A DNA stretch of 36,237 bases from an uncultured Anaerolineales bacterium (lineage in GTDB: Bacteria > Chloroflexota > Anaerolineae > Anaerolineales > UBA4823), in assembly GCA_937928795.1 (NCBI GenBank), contig CALFWB010000076.1:1-36237 (forward strand), given 5' to 3'. Below the pieces are notes generated by a model. The model worked only from the letters and a program-made list of their open reading frames with translations. It was not told the origin of the DNA and searched no databases. Below, in pieces: positions 17,955 through 36,078 of this stretch. Each line of letters begins with the position of its first letter. The stretch's first letter is position 1. The translations under genes and the position numbers were made by a program.

Positions 17955-18104
17955 AGCTTCATTGACCCGTCATCGCACCAATTCAGGCAATCCCTGATTG
18001 GTCGAGAGGGTTTCATTGAAAAATCCATTGCCATCGCCCGATCTGAACCGATCAGGGAGGGTGTGGTTTTTTATTGGTAGGTTACAGGCAAGTTGCAACC
18101 TACC
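17955..18104 (+). promoter_or_regulatory. Structured leader with possible attenuator
   Basis: Hairpin A: ACCAATTCAGG (17977-17987) with CCTGATTGGT (17993-18002), one bulge. Hairpin B: CCCGATC (18037-18043) with GATCAGGG (18050-18057), followed 9 nt later by T6 (18067-18072); the stem can extend by CCA/TGG pairing to reach the T-run. The CCCTGAT of hairpin A (17992-17998) is also perfectly complementary to ATCAGGG of B (18051-18057), so A and B can be exchanged for a third pairing. Hairpin C: GGTAGGTT (18076-18083) with AACCTACC (18097-18104) encloses a possible TTG start. No known riboswitch consensus was recognised. Confidence 0.4.
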
Positions 18105-21100: not shown

Positions 21101-21350
21101 CGAGATCAGCGGCGAGCAAGCTGGAGAGATGCTTTATGCCGATTTGCCCTCCCGCCATCAATATCCGCGTAGCGGTGTTGGCGGCCTGGGAGGGGCGGCC
21201 TTTATCGATCCGGCTCAATGCCAAGGCTGCGGCACTTGTACAGGAGAATGCCCAGCCAATGCGATCCAGTTGGTGCATTACACCGACGAACAAATGATGC
21301 TGCGTCAGATTCAAGGGCTTGGAGCATGGTTGAGCGAACCTATTCACTAA
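18093..21350 (+). CDS. hdrA: HdrA-like flavin/Fe-S subunit 1 (tandem HdrA form)
   Basis: Up to 1085 residues. The start is uncertain: TTG at 18093 lies in a hairpin loop, ATG at 18117 has GGAG only 2 nt away. Order: FAD domain with VIGGGIGGMRAALDLAEAG near 28; an inserted ferredoxin with two clusters (Cys139/142/145/149 and 187/190/193/197); return of the thioredoxin-reductase fold (YCSSICCMFATKEA); the classical HdrA N-terminal domain (GVFTCTCAGTLCETLN, about 488); a second FAD domain (VIGGGVAGMMAALAIADSG, about 628); and a C-terminal ferredoxin (CVGCLTCTRTCP, CQGCGTCTGECP). HdrA carries the electron-bifurcating flavin in methanogen complexes. The usual CAMCTISPK-type motif is replaced by CVLCRGTADHGYGCTRPSIS. 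First gene of the cluster; electrons likely pass to or from ferredoxin and the MvhD-like partner. Confidence 0.85.
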   Translation: MQPTVTGAMAVRKSFRQPIRPRPASAMVIGGGIGGMRAALDLAEAGLKVYLVEQTPCLGGRVAQLGFMFPQHDCVLCRGTADHGYGCTRPSISPAYIQNNQHPNIEILTLTRVVDVAGQAGDFTVSLRQEPRYVDSSRCINCGYCAQVCPIELPDSYQRGLTLRKAAYKVAARATPDAYVIDYGPYCEDCGKCVEVCPTEAINLQEQPRLLTVEVGAIILALGFQVFNPSGLEELGFGRYVNVLEAMQYERLASRSGPTEGIIQRPSDHKKPRSILWLQCVGSRDQENTYCSSICCMFATKEAILAKQRLGKEVQCTVFNMDERAFNKEYSRYFARARHEHGIRYVHCRLSGIYEDPQTKDLIVHYATPNGKKVSERFEMVVLATGLQPSGAARELISILGIEQNEFGFCQTDKFMPLQTSRPGVFVCGAFSSPKEIAETILDASGAAAEVMRLLNDRLNAYRFSHEAPFLANESFPPERDVSGEAARVGVFTCTCAGTLCETLNLKAITQQAAAWEGVKVAELLDLACFPHGLQHIQAAIQEQNLNRVVIGACSNRTHDSLFQKTIRAAGLNPYLLEVVNLQQQCNGVHRSQTELANRKARELLRMAVGRVSLAKPLHKEKHVCYPSALVIGGGVAGMMAALAIADSGYDVHLVERSEMLGGSLLNLYYVAEGYNPQRLLRDLVNRVRAHTRIQVYTRTEVMRHRGHVGDFRSELQTSLPDGRSVYTQIRHGVTVVATGGREAHEHAWLQLPGVITQRELEEMIIHEPQKVAGWKSVVMIQCVGKDGMADYCSRVCCTNTMKNAIRLRLFNPNCQVIVLYRNIVTYGFREKYYTEARQRGVLFIRWSDDQPPEVLLDEQSGKPLVRVKDLALDRWLEIGADVVPLSVSVVPADGSETLARKLRVPLSSEGFFEEAQLKLRPMDFMREGIFLAGMAAYPKFIEESISHALAAAGRALTLLTQKSLYLGGVVAQVDPQKCVGCLTCTRTCPFGIPQVVQPTEWSEISGEQAGEMLYADLPSRHQYPRSGVGGLGGAAFIDPAQCQGCGTCTGECPANAIQLVHYTDEQMMLRQIQGLGAWLSEPIH

Positions 21351-21880
21351 CCCAACCCAGTGCCGTGGTCGATAAAACGGCCATGGCAGATTTTGAGCCG
21401 CAAATCACCGCTTTTTATTGCATCTATTGCGGTTACATGGCTGCCGATACGGCTGGGATTCTCCACGTTCAATACCCGGCGAATATCAAGTTTGTGCGCA
21501 TGCCCTGCACTGGCAAGACCGATGTTCGCTATATTTTGGAAGCCTTCGAGCAAGGGGCTGATGGGGTCTATATCGTGGCTTGCCCGATTGGCAATTGCCA
21601 CCACGTGCGCGGCAATGAACGCGGCTGGGCAAGAGTCAGACGGGCAAAGAAAATCCTTGATGAAATCGGTTTGGGTGGCGAGCGGCTGGAGATCTTTTTC
21701 ATGTCGGGCAGCCAAGGGGCTTCGTTTGCCATTGCTGCCCAAACGATGACGGATAGAATTCGTCAACTGGGCCCAAACCCGATCAGACAAATGGTGAGGG
21801 AAGATCGGGGCAGGGTTGAAGAGGATGTGGATGAGGAGGTTGATTTTCGGGGCAGAAAACCGAAAAAACGAGATGGATAG
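21326..21880 (+). CDS. mvhD: MvhD-like [2Fe-2S] subunit 1
   Basis: 184 residues from the ATG at 21326, which overlaps hdrA by 25 bp and has AAGGG 8 nt upstream; the ATG at 21383 (165 residues) fits family N termini equally well. MvhD links HdrA to an electron donor through a [2Fe-2S] cluster. The conserved cysteines are visible in AFYCIYCGYMAADTAG, VRMPCTGKTD and ACPIGNCHHVRGN, and the LGPNP motif is near the end. It has a charged C-terminal tail (EEDVDEEVDFRGRKPKKRDG) absent from the second copy. No hydrogenase subunits MvhAG are nearby, so it probably bridges HdrA to another partner within this cluster. Confidence 0.85.
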   Translation: MVERTYSLTQPSAVVDKTAMADFEPQITAFYCIYCGYMAADTAGILHVQYPANIKFVRMPCTGKTDVRYILEAFEQGADGVYIVACPIGNCHHVRGNERGWARVRRAKKILDEIGLGGERLEIFFMSGSQGASFAIAAQTMTDRIRQLGPNPIRQMVREDRGRVEEDVDEEVDFRGRKPKKRDG

Positions 21881-21899: not shown

Positions 21900-24800
21900 A
21901 TGAGCGATATGCCGAAGGAGGAAGAGCGTATCTCAGCCGAAACGGATGCTAGCCCGGTGGGGGCGGTGATGGTGGTCGGGGGCGGCATTGCCGGGATGCA
22001 AGCTGCCCTCGATCTTGCCGATCAAGGGTTTAAGGTGTATTTAGTTGAAGCCAAGAGTGCCATTGGGGGCAAGATGGCTCAATTGGATAAAACCTTTCCG
22101 ACCAACGATTGTGCCATGTGTACCATCTCGCCAAAGTTGGTCGAAACGGGGCGGCATCCCAATATCGAAGTGATGACCCTAACCCAAGTGGTCGACCTGC
22201 GTGGGGAAGCGGGGAATTTCACCGTCACGCTCCAGCGTGAACCGCGCTACGTCGATCCGACCAAGTGTGTGGCTTGCGGGGATTGCGAAAAGGTCTGCCC
22301 GGTCATCGTCCCAGATGGCTTCAACGAAAACCTAATCAAGAAACACGCCATTTATAAGTTATACCCCCAAGCCGTTCCGAATGCGTATGCCATCGAGAAG
22401 CGAGGCATCTCTCCCTGTCGCGATGCCTGTCCAGCGGGGCAACGCGCCCAAGGGTACATCGCCTTGATCCGCGAGGGACGCTATCAGGATGCCTTGCGGG
22501 TGATCAAGATGGATAATCCCTTCCCCGGCATTTGCGGGCGGATCTGCAATCACCGTTGCGAAACGGCCTGTAATCGTGGCTTGGTTGACGAACCGATCAA
22601 CATTCGGGCGCTTAAGCGTTTTGTTACGGACAAGGTGTATGCTGAGCCGCGTCAGGCGGTGGATCCAGCGCCTAGGATTTATCCACAGCGGGTGGCGATT
22701 ATCGGCGCCGGACCCTGTGGGCTGACCGCCGCGCAGGATTTGGTTAAGGCTGGCTATGGGGTTACTGTCTTTGAGGCAATGCCGGTGGCGGGAGGGATGT
22801 TGCGCTTAGGTGTCCCAGAGTATCGTTTGCCAACTTCGATTATCGAACGGGAGGTTCAGGATATTTTAGATTTGGGGGTAGAACTGCGCTTGAACACCCA
22901 GGTCAATAATCTGGATGACGTTTTTGCCGAGGGGTTTGATGCCGTCTTGATTGCGGTAGGGGCGCATGAGGGGATCCGCTTGCGCATCCCAGGCGCCAAT
23001 TTGGATGGTGTGTTGGTCAACACCCATTTTCTGCGCGATGTGCGTTTGGGGAAATACGTGGCGCGCAGCGAGGACGGTAAACCACTCGAAGTAGGGAAGT
23101 TGCAGTTAGGGAAAAACGTGCTGGTCCTCGGCGGCGGCAACGTTGCCGTAGATTGTGCGCGCACGGCGGTTCGCTTGGGTTCAAAGGTGGCGATGGCTTG
23201 CCTTGAGTCACGCGAGACGATGCCGGCACATCCCTGGGAAGTGCAGGCTGCGCAAGAAGAGGGAGTGCAAATCTATAACGATTTGACCTTTGAGCAGATT
23301 CTGGCGGACGAGAACGGGCGGGCTTGTGGCGTAGAATGCATGCGCGTTGCCTCTTTCCATTTCGATGAAGCTGGCCGCCTGCATGTTGAAAAAATTCCCA
23401 ATTCAAATTTTGTCATCCCGTGTGATACCGTCATCTTCTCGGTGGGTCAACGGGCTGGTCTGGCGTTTATCCCTGCCGATGCCGGAGTGGGCATCACTCA
23501 AAAGCAGACGATTGCCATCAACCCCAACACCATGGCTGCCACTCGGCCGGGGGTCTTTGCGGCTGGCGATAGCGTTTCGGGCACGGCATTTGTGATTGAA
23601 GCGGTTGCCAGCGGTCATCGTGCGGCCGAGTCGATCATCCGCTATCTGCAAGGAGAGGCGTTGGAGAAACCGCCCAAACCAGAGTTGCCGGTGGTGCGTC
23701 TGAGCCAGCAAGAAATCGAGGAGCGCATTGCGCGTGGAGAAATCCGTCGTCAACGGCGGGTCCCCTTGCCGGAGTTGCCTCCCGAACAGCGTCGGGCCAG
23801 TTTTGAGGAAGTTGAAAGAGGATATGACGATGAAAGCGCTCAGGCAGAAGCGGCGCGCTGTTTGGCTTGTGGGGTTTGTTCGGAGTGCATGAGTTGTGTG
23901 TTTGCCTGCGGGGCGAAGGCAATTGACCATGATATGCCGCCCCAGCGGGAGGAAGTGCGGGTGGGGGCGGTGATCCTCGCGCCGGGCTATGAGGTTTACC
24001 GCGCCGAGCTTTCTGAGGAATTTGGCTTCGGACGGTATCCCAATGTCATTACCTCCTTGCAGTATGAGCGGTATCTCTCGGCTTCCGGTCCCACCTTTGG
24101 GCACATTCAACGACCTTCCGACGGAAGGCAACCCAAGCGGATAGCCTTTCTCCAATGCATTGGCTCACGTGATCAAAGCCATGATTATTGCTCGGCGGTG
24201 TGTTGCATGTATGCCACCAAAGAAGCCATCATGACCAAAGAACACCATCCGGAGATCGATATCCAAGTGTTCATGATGGATATGCGCGCTTTTTCCAAGG
24301 GTTATTGGGCATACTTTGAGCGCGCTGAGAAGAATTACGGGGTTCAATACACCCGCTGTCGGATTAGCTCTCTCAAAGAAGACCCGCTGACCCATAACTT
24401 GTCGATTACCTACCAAGATGAGGATGGGAACCTAGAGGCGCGGGAGTTTGATCTGGCTGTCCTCTCGGTTGGGATGGAAATCTCCGAAGCGGTGCGCAAT
24501 CTGGGACGGCGCTTGGGAATTGAACTGGATGAATATGGTTTCTGCCATACGGTGAAATTCAACCCGGTGCAAACCAGTCGAGCGGGGATCTATGCAGTTG
24601 GGCCCGTCCGTGAACCAAAAGATATTCCGGAGTCAGTGGTCGAAGCTAGCGGAGCGGCAGCCTGCGCAGCAGCCCAGTTGAGCCGGGCTCGCTTTCAGTT
24701 GACCCGCACGCCCGAATTCCCGCCCGAACGGGATGTGAGCGGTGAGGAACCGCGCATTGGGGTCTTTGTGTGTCATTGTGGCTCGAACATTGGAGGATAT

Positions 24801-26483
24801 TTGGATGTGCCGGCAGTGACCGAGTATGCGCGTCACTTGCCCTTTGTTGTCCATGCAGAGGACAATCTCTATACCTGTTCACAAGATAGCATTCGCCATA
24901 TCACCGAGCAAATTAGGGAACAAAATTTGAACCGCGTTGTCGTGGCTTCCTGCACGCCGTTGACCCATCAGCCACTCTTCCAAGATGTCTTGCGGGCTGC
25001 GGGTTTAAATCCCTATCTCTTTGAAATGGCGAATATCCGCAATCAGTGTTCCTGGGTGCATTCTCATGATTGGGAAACCGCTACCCAAAAAGCTTGTCAG
25101 TTAGTCCGCATGGCAGTAGCAAAAGCTGTGCATCTCGCCCCCCAAAAAACGGTATCTGTGTCGATTGAACACCGCGCCTTAGTGGTGGGAGGCGGGGTTA
25201 GTGGGATGGCGGCGGCTTTGAATTTGGCTGGGCAAGGCTTTGAAGTGCATCTGGTTGAGAAAGAAGCCGAGTTGGGCGGCAATCTGCGGCGAGTCTATAC
25301 CCCGCTCCCTGCCCTAGATCGGCGAGGAACTGTGGAAGCGCCGCAAGAACTCTTAAGATACTTGGTAAGCCAAGTCGAAAGTCAGGCGCGCATTCTTGTT
25401 CATACCCAAAGTCGCGTGGTGGATTTTAGCGGGTTCAGCGGTAACTTTCTGACCAAAATTGAAAGGCGTGATGGAAAGCGTGAAGAAATTCGCCATGGCG
25501 TGACGATTCTAGCTACAGGTGGACAGGAATATCGCGGCCCAGAATATGGTTTGGGCACTCATCCGGCTGTGATGACCCAGTTGGAACTGGAAGAGAAGAT
25601 TGCCCATGAACCGCAAGCTGTCCTTGCATGGAAATCGGTTGCGATGATCCTGTGCGTTGGTCCGGCGGAACAATATTGTAGTCGCATTTGCTGCACGGTG
25701 GCACTCAAGAACGCCATTGCGCTGAAAGAGATAAACCCTGAATTGCAGCTCGTTCTCTTTTATAAGGATATCCGCACCTATGGTTTTAAAGAGCGGCTCT
25801 ATACTCAAGCAAGGCAAAAAGGGATTCTCTTTATTCGCTACACCAGCGACCAACCCCCGCAAGTGATCGGTGAGAATAGAAGCCAAAGGATAGTCATTGA
25901 AGCAAAAGAACCTGCTTTAGGGCAAAACGTGCGTTTGTCGTTCGACGCATTGGTCTTGGCGATGCCGATTGTCCCCTCTGAAACTGCGCCTGAAATCTCC
26001 AAACTGTTTAAGGTGCCCCTCGGAAGCGATGGCTTCTTCCAAGAAGCGCATGTCAAACTGCGTCCGGTGGATGTATCGACAGAAGGGATTTACATTGCCG
26101 GCTTAGCGCATTATCCGAAATTGGTGGATGAGAGTATCATCCAAGCTCAGGCGGCGGCTTCGCGGGCTGGGCGGGTCTTGAGTCAGGAAGCCATCCTCGC
26201 CGGCGGTCGAGTGGCGGTGGTGGATGCGACAAAATGCACCGCTTGCCTAACTTGCGTGCGTATCTGTCCCTTCAACGTTCCACAAGTCAGAGCCGAGCTG
26301 AGCGGAGTCGGTGGAATTCAAGGAGCAGCCTATATCGAGCCATCGGTTTGCCAGGGCTGCGGCACCTGTGTTGCAGAATGTCCCGCTCGGGCGATCCAAT
26401 TAATGTATTTTACGGACACCCAAATCTTGGCGAAAATCTCGGCTTTGTTTGAAGCCGAAAAGGTGCAGAGATGTCTGGTGTGA
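21900..26483 (+). CDS. hdrA: HdrA-like subunit 2 with inserted GltD-like NAD(P)H:flavin module
   Basis: 1527 residues. The first FAD domain has VVGGGIAGMQAALDLADQG and the normal FPTNDCAMCTISPKLVE. Ferredoxin cluster 1 is Cys123/126/129/133. At about residue 170 the HdrA sequence breaks into a full GltD-like unit: N-terminal Fe-S motif (Cys173, 177, 212, 216, 220, 224), FAD Rossmann IIGAGPCGLTAA near 267, NAD(P) Rossmann LVLGGGNVAVDCA near 410, and AAGDSVSGT. It ends with a six-Cys motif (654-670) where ferredoxin cluster 2 should be. HdrA then resumes: YCSAVCCMYATKEA, N-domain GVFVCHCGSNIGG near 954, second HdrA FAD site GGGVSGMAAAL near 1096, C-terminal ferredoxin near 1446-1495. Three flavins are expected. 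Likely entry of NAD(P)H electrons into the complex. Confidence 0.88.
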   Translation: MSDMPKEEERISAETDASPVGAVMVVGGGIAGMQAALDLADQGFKVYLVEAKSAIGGKMAQLDKTFPTNDCAMCTISPKLVETGRHPNIEVMTLTQVVDLRGEAGNFTVTLQREPRYVDPTKCVACGDCEKVCPVIVPDGFNENLIKKHAIYKLYPQAVPNAYAIEKRGISPCRDACPAGQRAQGYIALIREGRYQDALRVIKMDNPFPGICGRICNHRCETACNRGLVDEPINIRALKRFVTDKVYAEPRQAVDPAPRIYPQRVAIIGAGPCGLTAAQDLVKAGYGVTVFEAMPVAGGMLRLGVPEYRLPTSIIEREVQDILDLGVELRLNTQVNNLDDVFAEGFDAVLIAVGAHEGIRLRIPGANLDGVLVNTHFLRDVRLGKYVARSEDGKPLEVGKLQLGKNVLVLGGGNVAVDCARTAVRLGSKVAMACLESRETMPAHPWEVQAAQEEGVQIYNDLTFEQILADENGRACGVECMRVASFHFDEAGRLHVEKIPNSNFVIPCDTVIFSVGQRAGLAFIPADAGVGITQKQTIAINPNTMAATRPGVFAAGDSVSGTAFVIEAVASGHRAAESIIRYLQGEALEKPPKPELPVVRLSQQEIEERIARGEIRRQRRVPLPELPPEQRRASFEEVERGYDDESAQAEAARCLACGVCSECMSCVFACGAKAIDHDMPPQREEVRVGAVILAPGYEVYRAELSEEFGFGRYPNVITSLQYERYLSASGPTFGHIQRPSDGRQPKRIAFLQCIGSRDQSHDYCSAVCCMYATKEAIMTKEHHPEIDIQVFMMDMRAFSKGYWAYFERAEKNYGVQYTRCRISSLKEDPLTHNLSITYQDEDGNLEAREFDLAVLSVGMEISEAVRNLGRRLGIELDEYGFCHTVKFNPVQTSRAGIYAVGPVREPKDIPESVVEASGAAACAAAQLSRARFQLTRTPEFPPERDVSGEEPRIGVFVCHCGSNIGGYLDVPAVTEYARHLPFVVHAEDNLYTCSQDSIRHITEQIREQNLNRVVVASCTPLTHQPLFQDVLRAAGLNPYLFEMANIRNQCSWVHSHDWETATQKACQLVRMAVAKAVHLAPQKTVSVSIEHRALVVGGGVSGMAAALNLAGQGFEVHLVEKEAELGGNLRRVYTPLPALDRRGTVEAPQELLRYLVSQVESQARILVHTQSRVVDFSGFSGNFLTKIERRDGKREEIRHGVTILATGGQEYRGPEYGLGTHPAVMTQLELEEKIAHEPQAVLAWKSVAMILCVGPAEQYCSRICCTVALKNAIALKEINPELQLVLFYKDIRTYGFKERLYTQARQKGILFIRYTSDQPPQVIGENRSQRIVIEAKEPALGQNVRLSFDALVLAMPIVPSETAPEISKLFKVPLGSDGFFQEAHVKLRPVDVSTEGIYIAGLAHYPKLVDESIIQAQAAASRAGRVLSQEAILAGGRVAVVDATKCTACLTCVRICPFNVPQVRAELSGVGGIQGAAYIEPSVCQGCGTCVAECPARAIQLMYFTDTQILAKISALFEAEKVQRCLV

Positions 26484-26932
26484 AGGAAGATACCCAGATC
26501 GTTGCTTTTTGTTGCCAATACTGCGCCTACGCCGCAGCCGATTTAGCGGGAGGGTTGCGCTTGCAATATCCGCCCGAGGTCAAAATTATCCAAATCCCCT
26601 GCACGGGCAAGATGGATATCTTATATGCCTTGCAGGCTTTTGAAGAAGGAGCCGACGCAGTGATGGTGGCGGGTTGTCTGCCGGGTGACTGTCACTTCTT
26701 GGAAGGAAACTATAACGCCATCCGCCGCGTTGAACGAGTTAAGGACCTCTTACGCATGATCGGCCTCGAGTCGCAGCGGATCAAGATGTTTCATATCTCC
26801 TCTTCGATGGCGAGCCAGTTTGTCAGAGCAGTGGAGGAGATGCTTGACGTTGTGGAGCAACTGGGCCCCAACCCATTGCGCGCAAACCATCCAGAAAATC
26901 CAAAGGAGATGATTAGCGAGGAGACGCGTTGA
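26471..26932 (+). CDS. mvhD: MvhD-like [2Fe-2S] subunit 2
   Basis: 153 residues; the ATG overlaps the end of hdrA copy 2 by 13 bp, so the two are translationally coupled as in copy 1. Cysteines are in AFCCQYCAYAAADLAGG, IQIPCTGKMD and AGCLPGDCHFLEGN; LGPNPLRA is near the C terminus. It is closer than copy 1 to canonical MvhD in length and in the AADLAG motif. Each MvhD follows its own HdrA, which argues for two dedicated HdrA-MvhD pairs, not a shared subunit. Confidence 0.88.
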   Translation: MSGVKEDTQIVAFCCQYCAYAAADLAGGLRLQYPPEVKIIQIPCTGKMDILYALQAFEEGADAVMVAGCLPGDCHFLEGNYNAIRRVERVKDLLRMIGLESQRIKMFHISSSMASQFVRAVEEMLDVVEQLGPNPLRANHPENPKEMISEETR

Positions 26933-26983: not shown

Positions 26984-27664
26984 GTGATTATCGCCGAACA
27001 AAAACCGTTTGAAGAAATCAAGAGCTTGGTCGGAGCAGCCCAGAAAGTCCTTGTGGTTGGCTGTGGCACCTGTGTGACGGTCTGTTTTGCTGGCGGCTCG
27101 CGTGAGGCCGCTATTTTAGCTGCTTCCTTGCGCATGGCATCCAAGCTGAATGGCGATCCCAAAGAGGTCAGCGATGTCACCGTTCAACGCCAATGTGAAT
27201 GGGAATACCTGGATAGCATTGCCGAGCAGGTGAGTGCGGTCGATGTGGTGCTTTCTCTGGGGTGTGGCATTGGCGTACAGGCGATTGCTGAACATTTTCC
27301 TAAAACTTGGGTGGTGCCCGGCTTAAACACCGCATTTCTAGGATTGCCGGCCGAGCAGGGGGTATGGGTAGAGCGCTGTGCTGCCTGTGGCGATTGTATT
27401 TTGGGGTTAACCGCCGGGGTTTGCCCGATTGCGCGTTGTTCCAAGTCGTTGCTCAATGGGCCTTGCGGTGGCTCCCAAAATGGCCATTGTGAAGTCAATC
27501 CAGATATTCCTTGTGGCTGGCAGTTGATTTACGACCGCCTAAAAGCTTTAGGAAAACTCGAGATGTTGTATGAGATTCGTCCGCCGAAGAATTGGCGCAC
27601 CTCACGAGATGGTGGACCGCGCAAAATTGTCCGTCCTGACCTGCGCTTGAGCGAGGAGGAATAA
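26984..27664 (+). CDS. metV: MetV, methylene-THF reductase partner (MTHFR_C domain)
   Basis: 226 residues, GTG start with GGAGG 6 nt upstream. MetV binds MetF in acetogen-type methylene-THF reductases and carries Fe-S clusters that feed its flavin. Seen: LVVGCGTCVTVCFAGG near the N terminus, SLGCGIGVQAIAEHFP, and the Cys-rich C-terminal part CAACGDCILGLTAGVCPIAR, NGPCGG, GHCEVNPDIPCGW that defines the family. It is separated from metF by only 2 nt. In Moorella the metVF pair sits with hdrCBA and mvhD, as here. Confidence 0.9.
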   Translation: MIIAEQKPFEEIKSLVGAAQKVLVVGCGTCVTVCFAGGSREAAILAASLRMASKLNGDPKEVSDVTVQRQCEWEYLDSIAEQVSAVDVVLSLGCGIGVQAIAEHFPKTWVVPGLNTAFLGLPAEQGVWVERCAACGDCILGLTAGVCPIARCSKSLLNGPCGGSQNGHCEVNPDIPCGWQLIYDRLKALGKLEMLYEIRPPKNWRTSRDGGPRKIVRPDLRLSEEE

Positions 27665-27666
27665 AG

Positions 27667-28692
27667 ATGGCAGAAGCAATGGCATCTAATGGTTACGTAA
27701 GCGGCTCGAATTTGGAAAAGGTGCTGAGGGCTGGCCATTTTGCAGTGACGGCTGAGCTTGGTCCCCCTCAAAGCGCCGATGGTGAGGTCATCCGCAAGAA
27801 AGCCGGGCTGTTGCGCGGTTTTTGTGATGCGGTCAATATCACCGACAATCAGACGGCTATTGTGCGCATGTCCAGTATTGGAGCAGGGGCGATCTTGGTG
27901 AGAGAGGGGCTGGAACCGGTCATTCAAATGACCTGTCGGGACCGCAACCGTTTGGCGATTCAGAGCGATCTTTTAGGAGCTTATGCGTTGGGAATGCGCA
28001 ATGTGCTGTGTTTGACCGGCGATCACCAAACCTTCGGGAATCACCCGCAAGCCAAGAATGTCTTTGATATCGATTCGGTGCAGTTGATCCAGATGGTGAA
28101 GACTCTGCGAGATGAACGCGCCTTTCAATGCGGTGATCCTTTGAAGGGGAGTGAACCGCGCTTTTTCATTGGCGCTGCCGAATCGCCCTTTGCCGATCCG
28201 GTGGAGTTTCGCCCCTATCGGCTGGGGAAAAAGATCAAAGCCGGGGCAAATTTCATCCAGACCCAGTTGGTTTTTGATATCCCAGCTTTTGAAGCCTTTA
28301 TGGAGAAGGTTCGTTCACTGGGCTTGCATCAGCAAGCCTACATCCTTGCTGGAGTTGGCCCCCTAAAAAGCCCAGCCATGGCAAAGTACATGAAAGAAAG
28401 CGTGCCGGGCATTCTGATCCCGGATGAGTTGATTCAACGGCTGGAGGAGGCAGGCAAGCCTTGGGCGGGCAAGAGCAAAGATGAACTGACCAAAGAGGAG
28501 AAAAAAGCCCGCTCGGAGGCTTGGAAGCAAACCGGAATCGAAATTTGCATTGAACTCATCCAACACATCCTGCGGATTGAAGGGGTTGCCGGGGTGCATA
28601 TTATGGCGATCGAATGGGAAGAAGCCGTTGCGCCAATTGTCAAGGGAGCCGGTTTATATCCCCGTCCGGTTGTCGAGCCACTACCTGCCTAA
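27667..28692 (+). CDS. metF: Methylenetetrahydrofolate reductase
   Basis: 341 residues with GAGGAGG upstream inside the end of metV. Interconverts methylene-THF and methyl-THF using FAD. TAELGPPQSAD replaces the usual TxExxPP start with its catalytic Glu, followed by NITDNQTA, QMTCRDRNR (folate and FAD contacts), CLTGDHQTFGNHPQAKNVFD and KAGANFIQTQLVFD. The length is slightly above the minimal MetF because of an inserted helical stretch near residue 270 (GKSKDELTKEEKKARSEA). With MetV and Hdr partners it probably does not take electrons straight from NADH as E. coli MetF does. Confidence 0.92.
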   Translation: MAEAMASNGYVSGSNLEKVLRAGHFAVTAELGPPQSADGEVIRKKAGLLRGFCDAVNITDNQTAIVRMSSIGAGAILVREGLEPVIQMTCRDRNRLAIQSDLLGAYALGMRNVLCLTGDHQTFGNHPQAKNVFDIDSVQLIQMVKTLRDERAFQCGDPLKGSEPRFFIGAAESPFADPVEFRPYRLGKKIKAGANFIQTQLVFDIPAFEAFMEKVRSLGLHQQAYILAGVGPLKSPAMAKYMKESVPGILIPDELIQRLEEAGKPWAGKSKDELTKEEKKARSEAWKQTGIEICIELIQHILRIEGVAGVHIMAIEWEEAVAPIVKGAGLYPRPVVEPLPA

Positions 28693-28715
28693 AAGCGCAA
28701 AGATTGGAGTGCGTG

Positions 28716-30134
28716 ATGGAAACCGAGAAGATAGCCAGTCCGCCAATTGCCGAAATTCGACCGCATCTTGCCCGCCGCGTTGAACAGGAATTGGGGCAGA
28801 ATGTTTACCTGTGCTATCAATGCGTAAAATGCACCAGCGGTTGCCCGATGAGCGAATTTTTTGATTGGCAGCCGAACCAAATCATGCGGGCTTTGCAACT
28901 GGGGCAGGAAGACATTGCTTTGCAGAGCTTGACCCCTTGGTTGTGTGCAGCTTGTCAAACCTGTTCAACGCGTTGCCCTCAGGGGTTGGATATTAACGCC
29001 ATCATGGAATTCCTGACTCGCGAGGCTATCGCTCAAGGGATTAAACCCAAAGTTCCCGAAGTTGCCATCTTCAACCGCGCCTTCTTGCGCCAAGTGCGCA
29101 TTTGGGGACGGTTGTACGAACCGGGATTGATGGTTGAAATGAAATTGGCTAACTTGCGCAGTTTGTTTGATGACATCGGTCTATATACGCGCATGTTGCG
29201 GAAAAGAAAGGTTGGCTTTTTCCCGAAAATGGTGCGCCCGCTGCGCAAGCCCCGTCCCACCCAGATTGCTGCCCAAGCAATCGCTTATTATCCGGGTTGC
29301 TCTCTCCATTCAAGTGCCAAGGAGTTTGATGAGTCGGCCCGTGCCGTTTGCCAAGCCTTAGACCTTAAAATCGTCGAGCCAGATGGCTGGGTGTGTTGCG
29401 GTAGCAGCGCAGCCCATCGGGCTGATCCCGATCTCGCCTTCAAATTGCCCATGCAGAATCTCAAACTTTTTGAGCAAAGCGGCTTCAGCGAGGTGACCAT
29501 GCCCTGTGCAGCTTGTTACAACCGTCACCAAGCAGCGCTCTATGAGATGCGCCACCACCCCCAGCAACGTCAAATGCTTGAGAAAGAACTGGACTATCAC
29601 TTTCAAGATACGGTTCGGGTGACCACATTGGTTGAGTCCGTTTATGCTCATGCCACAGGGGTAAAAATAACCCAACGCACTAGGAAGCCTCTAAAGGGAT
29701 TGCGGGTCGCCTGTTATTATGGATGTTTGATGACCCGTCCTCCACGGGTGACCGGGGCTGCGCATGTGGAAAACCCGACCGAGATGGAGAGCCTGTTGGC
29801 TGCCGCTGGGGCAGAAGTGGTTGATTGGTCGTATAAAACAACTTGTTGTGGTGCGGCCCACTCCTTAACCCGACCGGAAATCGTCTGGAGCCTAAGTTCA
29901 AAACTGTTGGTCGAAGCTCAAAAAGCCGGCGCCGAAGTGTTGGCTGTGGCTTGTCCGCTCTGCCACACCAATTTGGATGCTCGTCAATTTCAGATGGAGT
30001 TAGAGAAACCTTTGCCTGTTTTGTACTTCACTCAATTGTTGGGCATTGCCTTTGCCTTAACACCTTCACAGCTTGGTTTGGAGAAAAACCTGACGGATCC
30101 GTTTCCGCTGCTTCGCTCCAAAGGGCTTATCTAA
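28716..30134 (+). CDS. hdrCB: HdrC-HdrB fusion protein
   Basis: 472 residues from the ATG at 28716 (GGAG 6 nt upstream). The N-terminal HdrC part has two [4Fe-4S] motifs, Cys33/36/39/43 and Cys77/80/83/87. A linker follows, then HdrB with two CCG domains: YYPGCSLHSS near 193, WVCCGSS near 226 and MPCAAC near 262; then CYYGCLMTRPP near 332, TTCCGAA near 376 and ACPLCHTN near 412. All CCG cysteines are present, so both noncubane-type [4Fe-4S] clusters known from HdrB could form. In methanogens HdrB reduces CoM-S-S-CoB; in this context it more likely passes electrons to or from MetVF. In many organisms HdrB and HdrC are separate. Confidence 0.9.
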   Translation: METEKIASPPIAEIRPHLARRVEQELGQNVYLCYQCVKCTSGCPMSEFFDWQPNQIMRALQLGQEDIALQSLTPWLCAACQTCSTRCPQGLDINAIMEFLTREAIAQGIKPKVPEVAIFNRAFLRQVRIWGRLYEPGLMVEMKLANLRSLFDDIGLYTRMLRKRKVGFFPKMVRPLRKPRPTQIAAQAIAYYPGCSLHSSAKEFDESARAVCQALDLKIVEPDGWVCCGSSAAHRADPDLAFKLPMQNLKLFEQSGFSEVTMPCAACYNRHQAALYEMRHHPQQRQMLEKELDYHFQDTVRVTTLVESVYAHATGVKITQRTRKPLKGLRVACYYGCLMTRPPRVTGAAHVENPTEMESLLAAAGAEVVDWSYKTTCCGAAHSLTRPEIVWSLSSKLLVEAQKAGAEVLAVACPLCHTNLDARQFQMELEKPLPVLYFTQLLGIAFALTPSQLGLEKNLTDPFPLLRSKGLI

Positions 30135-30195
30135 CAAAAAGCGCGCCTGATGACCCATTCTCGCTGCTCCGCTACAGGCTGAACGGAGAGCAAAA

Positions 30196-30768
30196 ATGTT
30201 TCTGATGGATCATCCGAAAGAAGCGATTGACCCGATCGAGGTAATGCAGGACTTGCTGGCAAAAACCTGGACGGAAATGTGCCGCTTGTACGATGTCTCG
30301 GCAAGTTTACCCGACATTTCACTGATCTTCGATCATGTGCAATTGAGCGATGCCTGTGTTGCTGCCGAGAAAATCCTCGTCAACTTGCTCCTCGAAGTTA
30401 TGGAATCAGTAGGGCGTTTTTCGCCGTTTTACCGCCAACCGCCACGCGCTTTTGGAGTGATGTCCTATCGCAACCCGCAAACCCAGCGTGTGGAATGGAT
30501 TTTGGCGCCAGAGGGGCAGCGGCGCTGGGAAGTAGCGTTGAATCAACTCGAATGGCTGCTCAGTCAATACGGAGGGATCTTCCGCGCCATGCTATTTGTC
30601 GAGGGATTGATGGCGCGCAGTACCCCAAGCGACCCGCAAGTCCTTGCCCATTGCCATTGTGAGCCGCCTCATACCATTCAGCTAAAACGATCGCTTGTCC
30701 AAAAAAAAGAAGTCATTTGCGATACTTGTAAGCAACCCTACGAAATGTACGAAGTCAACTCAAGATAG
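30196..30768 (+). CDS. Uncharacterised protein with C-terminal Cys motif, last gene of hdr-met cluster
   Basis: 190 residues, not recognised. The body (about 1-145) looks alpha-helical and soluble, with no signal peptide or membrane segment. The C-terminal 40 residues hold AHCHCEPP (Cys153, Cys155 with flanking His) and ICDTCKQPY (Cys175, Cys178), separated by a basic stretch, resembling a zinc ribbon or a small Fe-S site. The ATG lies 61 bp after hdrCB with no strong ribosome site and no terminator between, so co-transcription is likely. A role in assembly, regulation or as a subunit of the Hdr-Met complex is inference from position only. Confidence 0.7.
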   Translation: MFLMDHPKEAIDPIEVMQDLLAKTWTEMCRLYDVSASLPDISLIFDHVQLSDACVAAEKILVNLLLEVMESVGRFSPFYRQPPRAFGVMSYRNPQTQRVEWILAPEGQRRWEVALNQLEWLLSQYGGIFRAMLFVEGLMARSTPSDPQVLAHCHCEPPHTIQLKRSLVQKKEVICDTCKQPYEMYEVNSR

Positions 30769-30951: not shown

Positions 30952-31737
30952 GTGAGTAAACCCCTAATTCCAGCTCAACGGCGTGAAAGAATCCAGGCTT
31001 ATCTCGCTCTGCATCGCATTGTGCCTTCCTCTGAGTTGAGCCGCTTGTTGAAGGTCTCTGAAGCTACCGTGCGGCGGGACCTAGAGTGGTTGGAAAGAGA
31101 AGGCATTGTCGAACGAACCCACGGTGGTGCGATTCTGAGCCAGCGAATGCGCATGGAGCCGCAATATACGCAGCGCGCCGCCCGCAATATAGAAGAGAAA
31201 CGCGCCATTGGACTGCGCGCCATCTCCTATATCGAAGAAGGCGATATTGTTTTTATCAACAGTGGGACGACCACCACCCAAATGATCAAGCAAATTCCGC
31301 GGGATGCCAATATCACCGTCTTTACCAACAACCTCCAAGCCGCTCTCGAAGTCGGTGAGGTCGGCTATGAACTGATCTTATTGGGGGGTAACTTTCAGCC
31401 AACCTCGAATTCGGTTGCCGGTCGCTTTGCGGTCGAAATCTTAGATCAGGTCTATGCTAATAAAGCTTTTGTCAGTGTGGATGGAGTCAGCTTGCGCCAT
31501 GGTTGCACAGTCCCCTCTAGCATGGAGGCGGAACTGATCCGCAAGATGTTGGAACGAACGCAGGGAGTACGCACCCTTCTGGTCGATCACTCCAAGTGGG
31601 GTGTGGTGTCGAATTTCGAGGTAACCCGCTTGGATCAAATCCATCGTCTGATTACGGATGATGGCTTAGATCGCCATACGCGCGAAATGTTGGCAGATTT
31701 GCCAATTGAGGTGGTGATTGCGAACGTTCAGCGCTGA
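30952..31737 (+). CDS. DeoR-family transcriptional regulator
   Basis: 261 residues, GTG start; the ribosome site is weak. The N-terminal HTH (RRERIQAYLALHRIVPSSEL, then VSEATVRRDLEWLEREGIVE, RTHGGA) is the DeoR signature. The C-terminal sugar-phosphate-sensing domain has FINSGTTTTQMIKQIP, FTNNLQAAL, LLGGNF and LVDHSKWG. Such proteins usually repress catabolic or transport genes and release DNA on binding a phosphorylated metabolite. It precedes the phosphoesterase by 71 bp and the permease, so these are its most likely targets. Confidence 0.88.
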   Translation: MSKPLIPAQRRERIQAYLALHRIVPSSELSRLLKVSEATVRRDLEWLEREGIVERTHGGAILSQRMRMEPQYTQRAARNIEEKRAIGLRAISYIEEGDIVFINSGTTTTQMIKQIPRDANITVFTNNLQAALEVGEVGYELILLGGNFQPTSNSVAGRFAVEILDQVYANKAFVSVDGVSLRHGCTVPSSMEAELIRKMLERTQGVRTLLVDHSKWGVVSNFEVTRLDQIHRLITDDGLDRHTREMLADLPIEVVIANVQR

Positions 31738-31808
31738 GCTGTCGTTCTTGTTTATTGTTATCGGTTGGTTGTAGTGTTTCTTAACTTTTGTCTATTTGGA
31801 GGCATTCC

Positions 31809-32804
31809 ATGTCGTTCTTATTTAAGAAAAGCAAAAAGAACTTTACCCGCCTTTTCTATGCTACCGATCTGCATGGTTCGGAGCGCACGTATCGCAAATT
31901 TCTTAATGCGGGGAAGTTTTATGAAGCCAATGTCTTAGTCATGGGCGGGGATATTACGGGCAAGTTGCTTATCCCGATCATCAAAGAGGGCAACGGACGC
32001 TACCGCGCCACCCTACAGGGCACGGTTCATCATGTTGAGAGCGAGGAAGAACGAAAAAACTTGATCGATCGGATTGGCTTACTTGGCTTTTATTATAAGG
32101 TCATGGAGGAGGACGAATTTGACTCTTTGCAAGGGGACAAAGCTGCGGTGGAGCAGTTGTTTCACCAACTGGCGCGCGAGCGATTAGAAAGTTGGATTGA
32201 TTTGGCCGAGACACGCCTGAAAGGCAGCGGCATCCGCTGTTTCGTCACAGGGGGCAACGATGATGACCCAGAGGTGTTAGAAGTTTTGAAACGGGAAGGG
32301 ACGGAAGCCTTTGTGGCTTGTGAAGGTGAGGCGGTTTTTATTGACGACGATCACTGCATGATCAGTGTTGGTTACAGCACTCCGACCCCGTGGAATACGC
32401 CGCGCGAGGTCACCGATGAACAGTTAGGTGCTTACATCGAAGAGATGGTGAAGAAAGTGCCCGATATGAATAAAGCCATTTTCAACTTTCACGATCCCCC
32501 TAAAGATTCGACCTTGGATACTTGCCCAATGCTAGATTGGAGCACCGATCCGCCTACGCCGATTGTCAAAGCCGGACAAATCGTCATGCATGGCGCAGGC
32601 AGCCTTTCCGTGCGCCAAGCCATCGAGAAGTATCAACCGCTGTTAGGTTTGCATGGTCACATTCACGAGTCGCAGGGGGTGATCAAAATCGGGCGCACCA
32701 CCTGTCTTAACCCGGGCAGTGAGTATGGTGAAGGCATCTTACGCGGTTGTTTGGTGAACCTATTAGAAGGTAAAGTGGAAGGATACCAGATGACCAGCGG
32801 ATAG
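31809..32804 (+). CDS. Calcineurin-like metallophosphoesterase
   Basis: 331 residues from the ATG at 31809, preceded by TTGGAGG; a start at 31788 is possible but lacks a ribosome site. Metal-site motifs are in order: FYATDLHGSE (DXH) near 18, MGGDITG (GD) near 43, VTGGNDDDP (GND) near 150, NFHDPP near 220, and GLHGHIHES (GHXH) near 283. The roughly 100-residue stretch between the GD and GND motifs is long for the fold and probably helical. No signal peptide, so cytoplasmic. The substrate is unknown; it lies between a DeoR regulator and an amino-acid permease. Confidence 0.82.
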   Translation: MSFLFKKSKKNFTRLFYATDLHGSERTYRKFLNAGKFYEANVLVMGGDITGKLLIPIIKEGNGRYRATLQGTVHHVESEEERKNLIDRIGLLGFYYKVMEEDEFDSLQGDKAAVEQLFHQLARERLESWIDLAETRLKGSGIRCFVTGGNDDDPEVLEVLKREGTEAFVACEGEAVFIDDDHCMISVGYSTPTPWNTPREVTDEQLGAYIEEMVKKVPDMNKAIFNFHDPPKDSTLDTCPMLDWSTDPPTPIVKAGQIVMHGAGSLSVRQAIEKYQPLLGLHGHIHESQGVIKIGRTTCLNPGSEYGEGILRGCLVNLLEGKVEGYQMTSG

Positions 32805-32922
32805 CTGAAATTCAAAAGTTAACCGTAGGAGGTGAAACGCTTAGGATTCTTCGTGAATTTGTGCCTATATTTCGGAATATTTACTATCCTGATTCCTATA
32901 CCGAATTAGAAAGGAGCCAAAG

Positions 32923-34551
32923 ATGGCAACAGCGGTGGCAAAACCAGAAGTTTTCACCCGAAAAGCCTCAGGCTTGGTGCGGGTGATGTCTCCCTATTCA
33001 GCTTTTATTTATAACATTCTGACAATGGGATTGATCTTCCCATGGACTTATTTATGGGGTCCGGGTGCCTTGCCCGGTGGCAATCTGTTCTGGGGGATTA
33101 TTCTCGCCATGCTCTTTGAGGTGCCGATTGCCTTCACCTATGTTTGGCTATCCACTGCCATGCCCCGTTCAGGTGGTGATTATGTCTTTCAAAGCCGTGC
33201 GTTTGGCGGTTTCTGGGGATTTACCATCCTGATGTCGGGATTTGTGATCTGGATTCTGCAGTGGGTTGCTCTATCGGGATGGTTACTTTCTTACCTTGGC
33301 TTTGCACCGCTCTTTCTAGGTCTCGGTGCCACCCTATCGAACCCCTCCCTGTCTCAGATCGGCGTTTGGTTTACAACTCCATGGGGAATTATCATTGTTA
33401 GCATCTTGAATGCTCTCCTTTCCATGCTCTTGCTGGTTAGTGGCTTCAAGAACTATGTTAAGTTTCAGTATGTCATGTTCTATGGCATTCTGATTGCCTT
33501 TACAACCATGCTGGTTGTTTTGTTCACCACGCCTACCTCGCAGTTTGTGGATCGCTTGAACGCCTTTGCACTTGCTTCAGGCGGGGTTCCGAATTTCTAT
33601 CAGACAGCAAAAGAAGCCGCCCTTGCCGCCGGCATTGACTTGAATCCTCCTTTCAGTTTCTTCAATACCTTGATGATTGCGGCAATTGCCTGGACAAGCC
33701 TACAATGGGCAACCTATTCGGCCGAACAAAATGGTGAAATTAAGGATGCTCGCTCGTTCAAGAGCCAAACTTTTATTCTAGTTGGTTCCTTGATCGTGAC
33801 CGGCATTCTGTTGGCGCTCCTCGGCGTGGCTTTCCAACGCGTCGGTGGCACGGAGTTCCTATATATTGCCGGTGCAGGATACTGGTCTGGAGTTTCTGAG
33901 GCGACCATTAGCGGATTCTGGCTCTGGCCGAATATCCTAGCTGTGGCGCTAACGGCAAGCCCAATTGTCGTCATTTTGATCGGCATTGGCTATATTTTGA
34001 ACTCCTTCCAAATCGTTAATAACTGCTACATCGGGGTAACCCGCATCATGGTCGCTATGTCCCTCGACCGTTTGTTGCCGGCTTGGTTCTCAGAGGTGAG
34101 CGAGAAATTCCACACTCCGGTCAACGCTCACATTGCCTACTTCTTGGCAAGCATTCCGGTCATCTTGCTTTACAACCTCTATGGCGGTTGGGCTTCTTTG
34201 ACCTTAGGGGTTACTTTTGCCTGCGGATATGTCTTTGCCTCGAGCAGCCTAGCCGGAGCAGTTTTCCCCTTCCGGGCGAAAGAGATTTACGAAGCCTCGC
34301 CCGGCGCAAAATATAAGCTGGGCAACATCCCGTGGGTAACTATCCTCGGCGCGCTGGGGGCGATCTTTGGCTTTGGGATGGTTCTCAGCTATCTGTTGGT
34401 GCCTGCGCTTGGCTTAACCAGTCCCTTAGCTTATAGCGTGGTGTTTGGGATTATCATTTTCTCGGCTCTGTGGTACTTAATTGTCAAACGGGCGCAAAAA
34501 GCGCGTGGCATTGACGTGGATTACGCCTTCAAAGAGATCCCGCCCGATTAG
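32923..34551 (+). CDS. APC-superfamily amino-acid permease
   Basis: 542 residues with AAAGGAG upstream. About 12 hydrophobic segments are visible, starting after a 20-residue polar N terminus. The first helix has SAFIYNILTMGLIF and is followed by AMPRSGGDYVFQSRAFGGFW, the conserved APC loop between helices 2 and 3. VNNCYIGVTRIMVAMSLDRLLPAWFSEV is the usual loop after helix 8. Transports amino acids or polyamines, probably by cation symport; the substrate cannot be told. It ends the DeoR-phosphoesterase-permease unit, which closes at the terminator 20 bp downstream. Confidence 0.87.
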   Translation: MATAVAKPEVFTRKASGLVRVMSPYSAFIYNILTMGLIFPWTYLWGPGALPGGNLFWGIILAMLFEVPIAFTYVWLSTAMPRSGGDYVFQSRAFGGFWGFTILMSGFVIWILQWVALSGWLLSYLGFAPLFLGLGATLSNPSLSQIGVWFTTPWGIIIVSILNALLSMLLLVSGFKNYVKFQYVMFYGILIAFTTMLVVLFTTPTSQFVDRLNAFALASGGVPNFYQTAKEAALAAGIDLNPPFSFFNTLMIAAIAWTSLQWATYSAEQNGEIKDARSFKSQTFILVGSLIVTGILLALLGVAFQRVGGTEFLYIAGAGYWSGVSEATISGFWLWPNILAVALTASPIVVILIGIGYILNSFQIVNNCYIGVTRIMVAMSLDRLLPAWFSEVSEKFHTPVNAHIAYFLASIPVILLYNLYGGWASLTLGVTFACGYVFASSSLAGAVFPFRAKEIYEASPGAKYKLGNIPWVTILGALGAIFGFGMVLSYLLVPALGLTSPLAYSVVFGIIIFSALWYLIVKRAQKARGIDVDYAFKEIPPD

Positions 34552-34571
34552 TCAGCCTTGAAAGTTTCTGC

Positions 34572-34600
34572 AGGAGCTATCGCAAGATAGCTCCTTTTTT
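34572..34600 (+). terminator. Intrinsic terminator after the permease
   Basis: Perfect 10-bp stem AGGAGCTATC (34572-34581) and GATAGCTCCT (34586-34595), GCAA tetraloop, and a T6 run (34595-34600). A textbook rho-independent terminator. Confidence 0.93.
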
Positions 34601-34601
34601 G

Positions 34602-34610
34602 TGTTATAAC
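34602..34610 (+). promoter_or_regulatory. Extended -10 promoter, probably giving a leaderless mRNA
   Basis: TGTTATAAC (TGN plus TATAAC) ends 7 nt before the mazG ATG at 34618, so transcription should start at or next to the start codon. No ribosome site precedes the ATG. The position of the -35 falls in the upstream terminator stem and has no TTGACA-like sequence. Confidence 0.5.
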
Positions 34611-34617
34611 TGCAGGC

Positions 34618-36078
34618 ATGTTCAATTTAGCTGCAATAACCATTCTTGGATTAGGACCTGGCGACCCTAAGTTGCTCACCCGTCAAGTTTGGGAATTGCT
34701 GGGGCAGGTAAATGAGATTTACGTCCGTACCCAGCGCCATCCCGCTTTGGCGGGCTTACCAGCTCATCTTCAAATTCATTCATTTGATTATCTCTACAAC
34801 CGTGCCAGCTCATTTGAATCGGTCTATCAGCAGATCACGGAACAAGTTGTCCAACTCGGAAAGCGTTCTCAGGGTGTCGTTTATGCTGTGCCTGGCCATC
34901 CGTTTGTGGCGGAAGCAACCACGCCGGCAATTCTGAGCCTAGCGCGTCAGGAAGGCTTGAGCGTCCAGGTGCTCGATGGAATCAGTTTTATCGAACCCAT
35001 CCTGACCGCTTTGGAAATTGACCCTTTGCCGAACTTGTTGATCTTAGACGCCCTAGAGATTGCCGCCTCGCATGTGCCCCAATTTCCCCCTCATGTTCCT
35101 GTTTTGGTTGCTCAACTCTATTCCCGTCAAGTGGCTGCGGATGTCAAATTAACTTTGATGGAAGTCTATCCGCCGCATCATCCAGTCCGCTTGGTGCATC
35201 AGGCTGGAACTGCTTCCATGAAAGTAGAGGCGGTGGACCTTTATGAAATCGATCGCAGCTTCTCAATAGACTGGATGACTTCTTTATATCTGCCGGGCTT
35301 ACCACGCCAAACCTCGTTTGAAGCCTTTCAGGAAGTGGTCGCCCATTTGCGTTCCCCCGAAGGTTGCCCGTGGGATCGCGAGCAAGATCATCAAACCCTC
35401 AAGCCGTTCTTGCTCGAAGAGGCTTATGAGCTGGTGGAAGCAATTGATCGAGAGGATATTGCAGCGATGCAGGAAGAGCTTGGGGATTTACTGCTGCAAG
35501 TGGTTTTACATGCTCAAATCGCCAATGAAGACGGCGATTTTGGCATGAAGGATGTTTTATCTGGCATTCACCGCAAACTGGTCAACCGCCATCCGCATGT
35601 CTTCGGGGAGTTATCCGTCAAAGACAGCGGGGAGGTTTTACGCAATTGGGAGAAACTAAAAGCTGCAGAGCGACTCAAGAACGGCGAGGGGCAAAAAGGG
35701 CTTCTGGATGGCATCCCACGCGCTCTGCCAGCCTTGAGCCAAGCCCAAGAAATTCAACGACGCGCGGCGCGGGTGGGCTTTGATTGGCCTGTGATTGAAG
35801 GGGTACTCCAGAAGGTGGAAGAGGAATTACACGAACTGGTGGCGGCAAAGGGCACGAAAGATCAAACGGATGAGTACGGTGACCTTCTCTTTTCGATGGT
35901 CAATCTGGCGCGTTGGCTGAAGATTGATGCAGAAAGCGCCTTGCGGCAAGCTAACCAACGCTTTCGCCGGCGCTTTGCCCACATCGAGCAGCGTGTCAAG
36001 GAGCAAGAGAGAAGCTTAGGCGATTTAACCCTCGAAGAGATGGATGCCCTTTGGAACGAGGCAAAACGGTTGGGGTAA
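34618..36078 (+). CDS. mazG: YabN-like tetrapyrrole methylase-MazG fusion, nucleoside triphosphate pyrophosphohydrolase
   Basis: 486 residues. The N-terminal half (about 1-225) has TILGLGPGDPKLLTRQVWEL and VYAVPGHPFVAEAT, the SAM-binding signatures of the tetrapyrrole (corrin/porphyrin) methylase fold. The C-terminal half is MazG: RSPEGCPWDREQDHQTLKPF, LLEEAYELVEAI, EELGDLLLQVVLHAQIA with the metal-binding EEXXD-type residues, then NRHPHVFG, and a second MazG-like repeat (VEEELHELVAA, EYGDLLFSMVNLARW). It hydrolyses NTPs or non-canonical nucleotides to NMP and pyrophosphate. Whether the methylase half is active is unknown. Convergent with the TPR gene, 5 bp apart. Confidence 0.9.
   Translation: MFNLAAITILGLGPGDPKLLTRQVWELLGQVNEIYVRTQRHPALAGLPAHLQIHSFDYLYNRASSFESVYQQITEQVVQLGKRSQGVVYAVPGHPFVAEATTPAILSLARQEGLSVQVLDGISFIEPILTALEIDPLPNLLILDALEIAASHVPQFPPHVPVLVAQLYSRQVAADVKLTLMEVYPPHHPVRLVHQAGTASMKVEAVDLYEIDRSFSIDWMTSLYLPGLPRQTSFEAFQEVVAHLRSPEGCPWDREQDHQTLKPFLLEEAYELVEAIDREDIAAMQEELGDLLLQVVLHAQIANEDGDFGMKDVLSGIHRKLVNRHPHVFGELSVKDSGEVLRNWEKLKAAERLKNGEGQKGLLDGIPRALPALSQAQEIQRRAARVGFDWPVIEGVLQKVEEELHELVAAKGTKDQTDEYGDLLFSMVNLARWLKIDAESALRQANQRFRRRFAHIEQRVKEQERSLGDLTLEEMDALWNEAKRLG

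Follow-up and report, generated by a model that had tools for sequence, protein, structure and literature searches.

The last gene of an hdr-met cluster in the window (the whole 36,237-nt stretch of DNA that was analysed) encodes a small protein, hereafter the target (30196-30768, + strand), of a family that appears to be undescribed as far as the libraries and searches used go. We tentatively propose, with slightly less than even confidence, that the target is a non-catalytic accessory, small and acidic, to a Moorella/Sporomusa-like, Hdr-type MetVF methylene-THF reductase, an enzyme complex of carbon dioxide fixation, and that it binds the HdrCB subunit and either stabilises or tunes that subunit. 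We infer the physical binding to HdrCB, the bound metal and the effect on stability or tuning. If this holds, genes annotated as "hypothetical protein" in the Anaerolineae would become a defined family whose proposed partner can be tested.

The gene cluster and its final gene

Upstream of the target, the gene order is hdrA, mvhD, a second, 1527-aa hdrA with a GltD-like stretch, mvhD, metV, metF and a fused hdrCB. The features are as follows, with the basis of each assignment in brackets.

18093-21350, +, hdrA1 (family matches)
21218-21880, +, ORF containing mvhD1, whose true start lies further in (sequence reading; blastp of relatives)
21900-26483, +, hdrA2, 1527 aa, with a GltD/NfnB-like stretch at about residues 171-655 (family match)
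26471-26932, +, mvhD2 (FlpD family), Cys form (family matches)
26984-27664, +, metV, MTHFR C-terminal family PF12225 (Pfam)
27667-28692, +, metF (family matches)
28716-30134, +, hdrCB, HdrC-HdrB fusion, gene of the proposed partner (start picked by eye within the ORF 28614-30134)
30185-30188, +, GGAG seven bases ahead of the start codon, a likely ribosome-binding site for the target (read from the sequence)
30196-30768, +, target gene, 190-aa protein with a probable helical body and a C-terminal Cys4 ribbon, final gene of the hdr-met cluster (ORF, relatives, alignments)
30652-30729, +, predicted Cys4 ribbon of the target, C153-x-C155 ... C175-x-x-C178 (invariant in 18/18 rows; fragment model)

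Judged by its gene content, with metV, metF, hdrA, hdrC/hdrB and mvhD together, this is an Hdr-type MetVF methylene-THF reductase cluster, the complex and its activity being predicted. The acetyl-CoA synthase marker PF03598 is present in all 18 genomes that carry the target, whose setting is probably that of Wood-Ljungdahl Anaerolineae. Such a setting is already known from the passages on these clusters in PMC9430772 and PMC5736913; what is new is an additional, lineage-specific gene. The hdrCBA-mvhD-metVF clusters of Moorella thermoacetica and Sporomusa ovata likewise combine MetV, MetF, HdrA, HdrC/HdrB and MvhD in a Wood-Ljungdahl setting, as outlined in the relevant part of PMC9430772, and a fused hdrCB is reported in the corresponding part of PMC5736913 for the marine Chloroflexi single-cell genome DscP3. 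In contrast to the Moorella and Sporomusa clusters, the window exhibits HdrA and MvhD in two copies each, a GltD-like part in one of the HdrA proteins, another gene order and the extra target gene at the end. No target-like gene features in those two clusters as described in that part of PMC9430772, which counts against an accessory role. The same source, in its treatment of Hdr-type reductases, regards the electron route to methylene-THF, bifurcation included, as unsettled.

The target ORF is an open frame of 190 codons with an ATG start, 61 nt after the hdrCB stop codon. The earlier sequence-only reading, which had the gene following hdrCB without a terminator, agrees with a simple scan of the gap, where no terminator-like site was found on the + strand; as the scan yields no more sites than shuffled sequence, it simply fails to contradict co-transcription. 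Among the relatives, hdrCB and the target lie on the same strand, with spacings ranging from overlap to approximately 100 nt. The dN/dS of the target is 0.07-0.10 in the three pairs, of ten, that gave a value, which shows purifying selection. Together with 17 relatives and 14 invariant residues in an 18-row alignment, these values place the ORF beyond chance and confirm it as a real gene.

Family membership and protein features

With regard to known families, neither Pfam nor NCBIfam gave a match to the target above cut-off, a comparison of 15 members with Pfam and PHROGs gave no consistent match, and the best E-values of the profile against PDB sequences were chance-like (0.64 for the whole protein, 0.26 for the ribbon fragment). 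The initial statement that the protein has no recognisable family therefore holds for these four libraries. The target matches none of the HdrA, HdrB, HdrC, MvhD, MetV and MetF families and is accordingly none of the known subunits of Hdr-type methylene-THF reductases, and a literature search by words rather than by sequence found no paper naming it. Several weak Pfam matches (B12-binding_2, VMAP-M0, ExsD_C and others) were rejected, as they are below cut-off and common to at most two of the 15 members; B12-binding_2 (PF02607) scored 17.4 bits against a cut-off of 23 and was weak in two of 15.

Relatives were sought in overlapping Chloroflexota sets of 101, 396, 400 and 301 genomes. There are 17, all from Chloroflexota, which gives 18 genomes with the window's own. 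Ten were found among 100 related genomes, the window's own genome not being counted, and four credible ones besides its own among 396 genomes of the class, where the other two matches were a remnant in G402, not counted as a member, and a chance match in G444. The 400-genome sample of the phylum contained no relative besides the window's own, and the 301-genome sample of the order added three. Other phyla were covered solely by plasmids, where a search gave no homologue, and by a short-peptide scan for close relatives across 84,980 species genomes. The scan gave one match, the Anaerolineae MAG Nak19, probably the same genome as G004; this MAG comes from a sulfidic hot spring, according to the part of PMC6013643 that describes it. 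The weak matches in G444 (locus L028) and G887 (L170) were dropped as not credible, and G830 and G060, which are SprT-like proteins matching in the ribbon alone, were not counted. Loci L014 and L022 are the same stretch, which entered the alignments, trees and counts once.

The invariant residues in the 18-row alignment, in which the row from L175 is cut by its contig and leaves the N-terminus uncovered, are W25, P39, A57, R74, P82, G87, W101, L103, W111, C153, C155, P157, C175 and C178. The N-terminal two thirds thus exhibit invariant Trp, Pro, Arg and Gly residues, with no catalytic-looking conserved set. All 18 proteins are acidic (pI 4.55-5.84). The C-terminal HCHC...CXXC arrangement noted at first corresponds to residues 152-155 (HCHC) and 175-178 (CDTC). 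Its four cysteines (CxC...CxxC) are invariant, whereas its two HCHC histidines vary among the members, and the tail therefore looks like a Cys4 zinc ribbon, as predicted from the alignment. Beyond these four, the family has no conserved cysteine.

The CxC...CxxC spacing is that of zinc ribbons and rubredoxin-like Cys4 knuckles, including the C-terminal ribbon of SprT-like proteins. The family profile touches this ribbon in two SprT-like HExxH proteins (E = 8.8e-5 and 2.2e-4 for one genome), a match that is marginal because the search spanned 301 genomes. Unlike SprT-like proteins, the target exhibits no HExxH protease domain and does not match the Pfam SprT-like family, and its body is unrelated to theirs by sequence.

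An AlphaFold model of the whole target from a two-row input was unusable (pLDDT 50.1, pTM 0.30). It hints at helices at 13-31, 52-72 and 105-140, and the helical body read from the sequence thus finds a hint in this poor model alone. The ribbon fragment gave a better model (pLDDT 70.6), and the Foldseek search was made with this fragment only; its best match (E = 1.0) and the best VIA match (Z = 3.4) were not significant, and no known fold is claimed or denied for the fragment. Many of these non-significant neighbours are, by title, zinc-binding modules such as RING domains and zinc-substituted rubredoxin; others are the ribbons of eRF1, SIRT2 and MCM, which we also take to be zinc-binding modules.

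Association with hdrCB and patchy distribution

The check proposed with the earlier reading, whether homologues always adjoin hdrCB or metVF, came out in its favour: hdrCB directly precedes the target in 17 of the 17 genomes whose contig includes the upstream side (the contig of G912 begins inside the target gene and was left out), and metV and metF lie upstream on the same contig in 16 of these 17, the exception being G057, where they are not on that contig. Neither a wide distribution without Hdr/Met neighbours nor a clear match to an unrelated family, either of which would have spoken against this association, appeared in the searched data. The genes downstream of the target are common to the window's genus alone, the first in the window encoding a DeoR-type regulator. 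In that genus, DeoR-type regulator, phosphoesterase-like, transporter-like and MazG-like proteins (30952-36078 in the window) follow the target in the same order in five of five genomes, as far as the contigs reach, with identities of 89-96% for the first three and 81-83% for the MazG-like protein.

Pairwise divergence of the target was compared with that of its neighbours in 14 rows and, with the genus reduced to one, in 10 rows; these are simple distances, and several of the HdrA2 rows are incomplete because a contig or a fetched stretch ends within them. The rho values (14 rows; 10 rows) were 0.64 and 0.57 with HdrCB, 0.41 and 0.04 with MetF, 0.45 and 0.12 with MetV, and 0.16 and -0.25 with HdrA2. 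For comparison, the known heterodimer MetV-MetF gave 0.74 and 0.77. Given HdrA2, the partial correlation between target and HdrCB was 0.62 in 14 rows, a value reached in 1 of 2000 permutations, and 0.55 in 10 rows (33 of 2000). The divergence of the target thus tracks HdrCB better than MetF, MetV or HdrA2, which is a pointer and not proof, as adjacency or shared exchange of the target and hdrCB would yield the same signal. No HdrCB alignment column separates 16 target-bearing rows from five without the target.

MetV occurs in 93 of the 396 class genomes and in 26 of 101 relatives, and 97 regions surrounding MetV matches in the class genomes were retrieved. A 64-row HdrCB tree was limited to rows that align over 330 residues or more at above 40% identity; in it, the target falls inside one clade of 20 rows, 15 with and five without it, and is found in none of the 44 rows outside. 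With nearer relatives added, the clade, which has 100/100 support and to which the target is confined, comprises 30 rows: 17 with the target, 11 without and two whose contig ends too soon. Presence and absence require six changes on the enlarged tree (bootstrap 5-8), whereas shuffled labels require 13 on average. The initial tree had suggested one gain and one loss, and the six changes weaken the interpretation of the target as a core subunit.

A profile search of 21 genomes lacking the target, 20 with MetV (two of them, G023 and G032, just 63-64% complete) plus G402, found no copy in the 20 and the remnant alone in G402, so the target is optional and not relocated. Relatives without it retain an HdrCB at 57-64% identity to that of the window. 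The target is therefore an optional accessory and not a core subunit; a single gain at the root of the clade was probably followed by several losses, in which HdrCB, MetV and MetF were retained. Three supported sister pairs with the target in one member and not the other (L021/L183, L174/L182 and L061/L066) offer a natural comparison with and without it.

In G402, a 157-bp scar of the target (L172, G402:C14, 9498-9654) adjoins a flank that is 91% identical up to that spot to G223, of the same genus. The 19.9-kb stretch read there shows no trace of the hdr-met cluster, and the genome keeps acetyl-CoA synthase. The scar appears to mark the loss of the whole cluster, which may be a single deletion and is thus weak evidence on the target.

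Possible functions of the target

In the proposed mechanism, the N-terminal two thirds would form a docking body, a single structural Zn(II) would sit in the CxC...CxxC ribbon at the C-terminus, and the protein would bind the HdrCB subunit and stabilise or tune it. This is suggested by the constant position behind hdrCB while the downstream neighbours change outside the genus, by the co-divergence with HdrCB and by the confinement to one HdrCB clade. Against it, the patchy presence shows that the complex manages without the target, a pattern that fits a chaperone or a passenger equally well.

The target could instead be a dedicated assembly chaperone that binds immature HdrCB, helps to insert or protect its Fe-S clusters and then leaves, being absent from the finished complex. 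The location and co-variation data apply here as they do to a stable accessory, and the Cys4 tail, the optional presence and the fastest divergence of the set would fit (mean identity over 16 rows of 0.41 for the target, 0.67 for HdrCB, 0.77 for MetF and 0.78 for MetV). However, the target exhibits no sequence similarity to any chaperone family in Pfam, NCBIfam or the PDB profile search, the conserved cysteines are limited to the four of the ribbon, and close homologues of HdrCB persist without it; we consider this role rather unlikely. An undescribed subunit or chaperone had been suggested from the sequence, and the tie to hdrCB is in keeping with this. A required subunit is not, since 11 of 28 scorable close HdrCB relatives have neither the gene nor a copy elsewhere. 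A lineage-specific extra subunit on HdrCB that alters how the Hdr module and MetVF exchange electrons (it might, for instance, lock an assembly state or bring in a partner) is unlikely; if it were real, lineages with and without the target would run the same enzyme in different modes.

It is quite improbable that the target is a passenger with another Wood-Ljungdahl role, merely sitting at the operon end as DUF3786, CooC-like, FolD-like and cyclodeaminase-like genes seem to do in sister lineages. The place behind hdrCB is indeed held in other Anaerolineae by various genes (DUF3786 and, by eye, CooC-like, FolD-like and cyclodeaminase-like ORFs), and the target is optional. Nevertheless, it was never found away from hdrCB (17/17), nor in any searched genome without hdrCB except as the G402 remnant, whereas DUF3786 occurs elsewhere in 13 of the 18 target genomes.

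The redox-responsive regulator also put forward from the sequence, in the form of a redox- or zinc-responsive operon regulator sensing through the ribbon, is very doubtful: the Cys4 tail and the operon end, a common place for regulators, speak for it, but no HTH or other DNA-binding family matched (Pfam and NCBIfam; 15 members against Pfam), the protein is acidic in 18 of 18 genomes, the adjoining DeoR-type gene is common to the genus only and close relatives have hdr-met clusters without the target, so a DNA-binding role is unlikely.

Other observations in the hdr-met loci

The DUF3786 gene (PF12654) is of similar size to the target and lies behind hdrCB in sister lineages, at four loci by Pfam (L065:7367-8020, L066:3798-4463, L067:3803-4456 and L068:1893-2627). 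A similar DUF3786-like ORF was seen by eye further on behind hdrCB in L178, L179 and L181, and a CooC-like ATPase near the DUF3786 gene in L067, L068, L179 and L181. DUF3786 looks like a Wood-Ljungdahl accessory. It was rejected as a functional stand-in for the target because both are present in 13 of 18 target genomes and exhibit no sequence or profile similarity.

The hdrA2 of the window (21900-26483) carries within its 1527 aa a GltD/NfnB-like NAD(P)H-binding stretch of approximately 500 residues, conserved in target-bearing relatives, suggesting that the protein contains its own entry point for NAD(P)H. In addition, a 568-aa protein at 2211-3917 gave borderline matches to multihaem cytochromes (MtrC/MtrF-like, 30.1 bits against a cut-off of 30).

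With regard to selenocysteine, TGA flags in MetV were dropped as candidates: the search pattern for the N-terminal motif matched in five of eight loci, the motif is intact in these five, and the TGA probably serves as the ordinary stop codon. The 2026 selenoproteome review (PMC13188914) associates selenocysteine-containing hydrogenase subunits, including MvhD/VhuD, with methanogens and sulfate reducers; the word Chloroflexota is absent from it. In the Anaerolineae, 59 of 90 hdr-met loci holding mvhD exhibit a single in-frame stop at VAG*LxGDCHY, which is TGA in all 59 (e.g. L016:6638-6640); the window's mvhD2 (26471-26932) has the Cys form at this position. The TGA-interrupted gene very likely encodes an MvhD that contains selenocysteine and belongs to a bacterial Hdr-MetVF cluster. 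SelB was found in 11 of the 11 queried genomes with the TGA form, and in 17 of all 18 queried.
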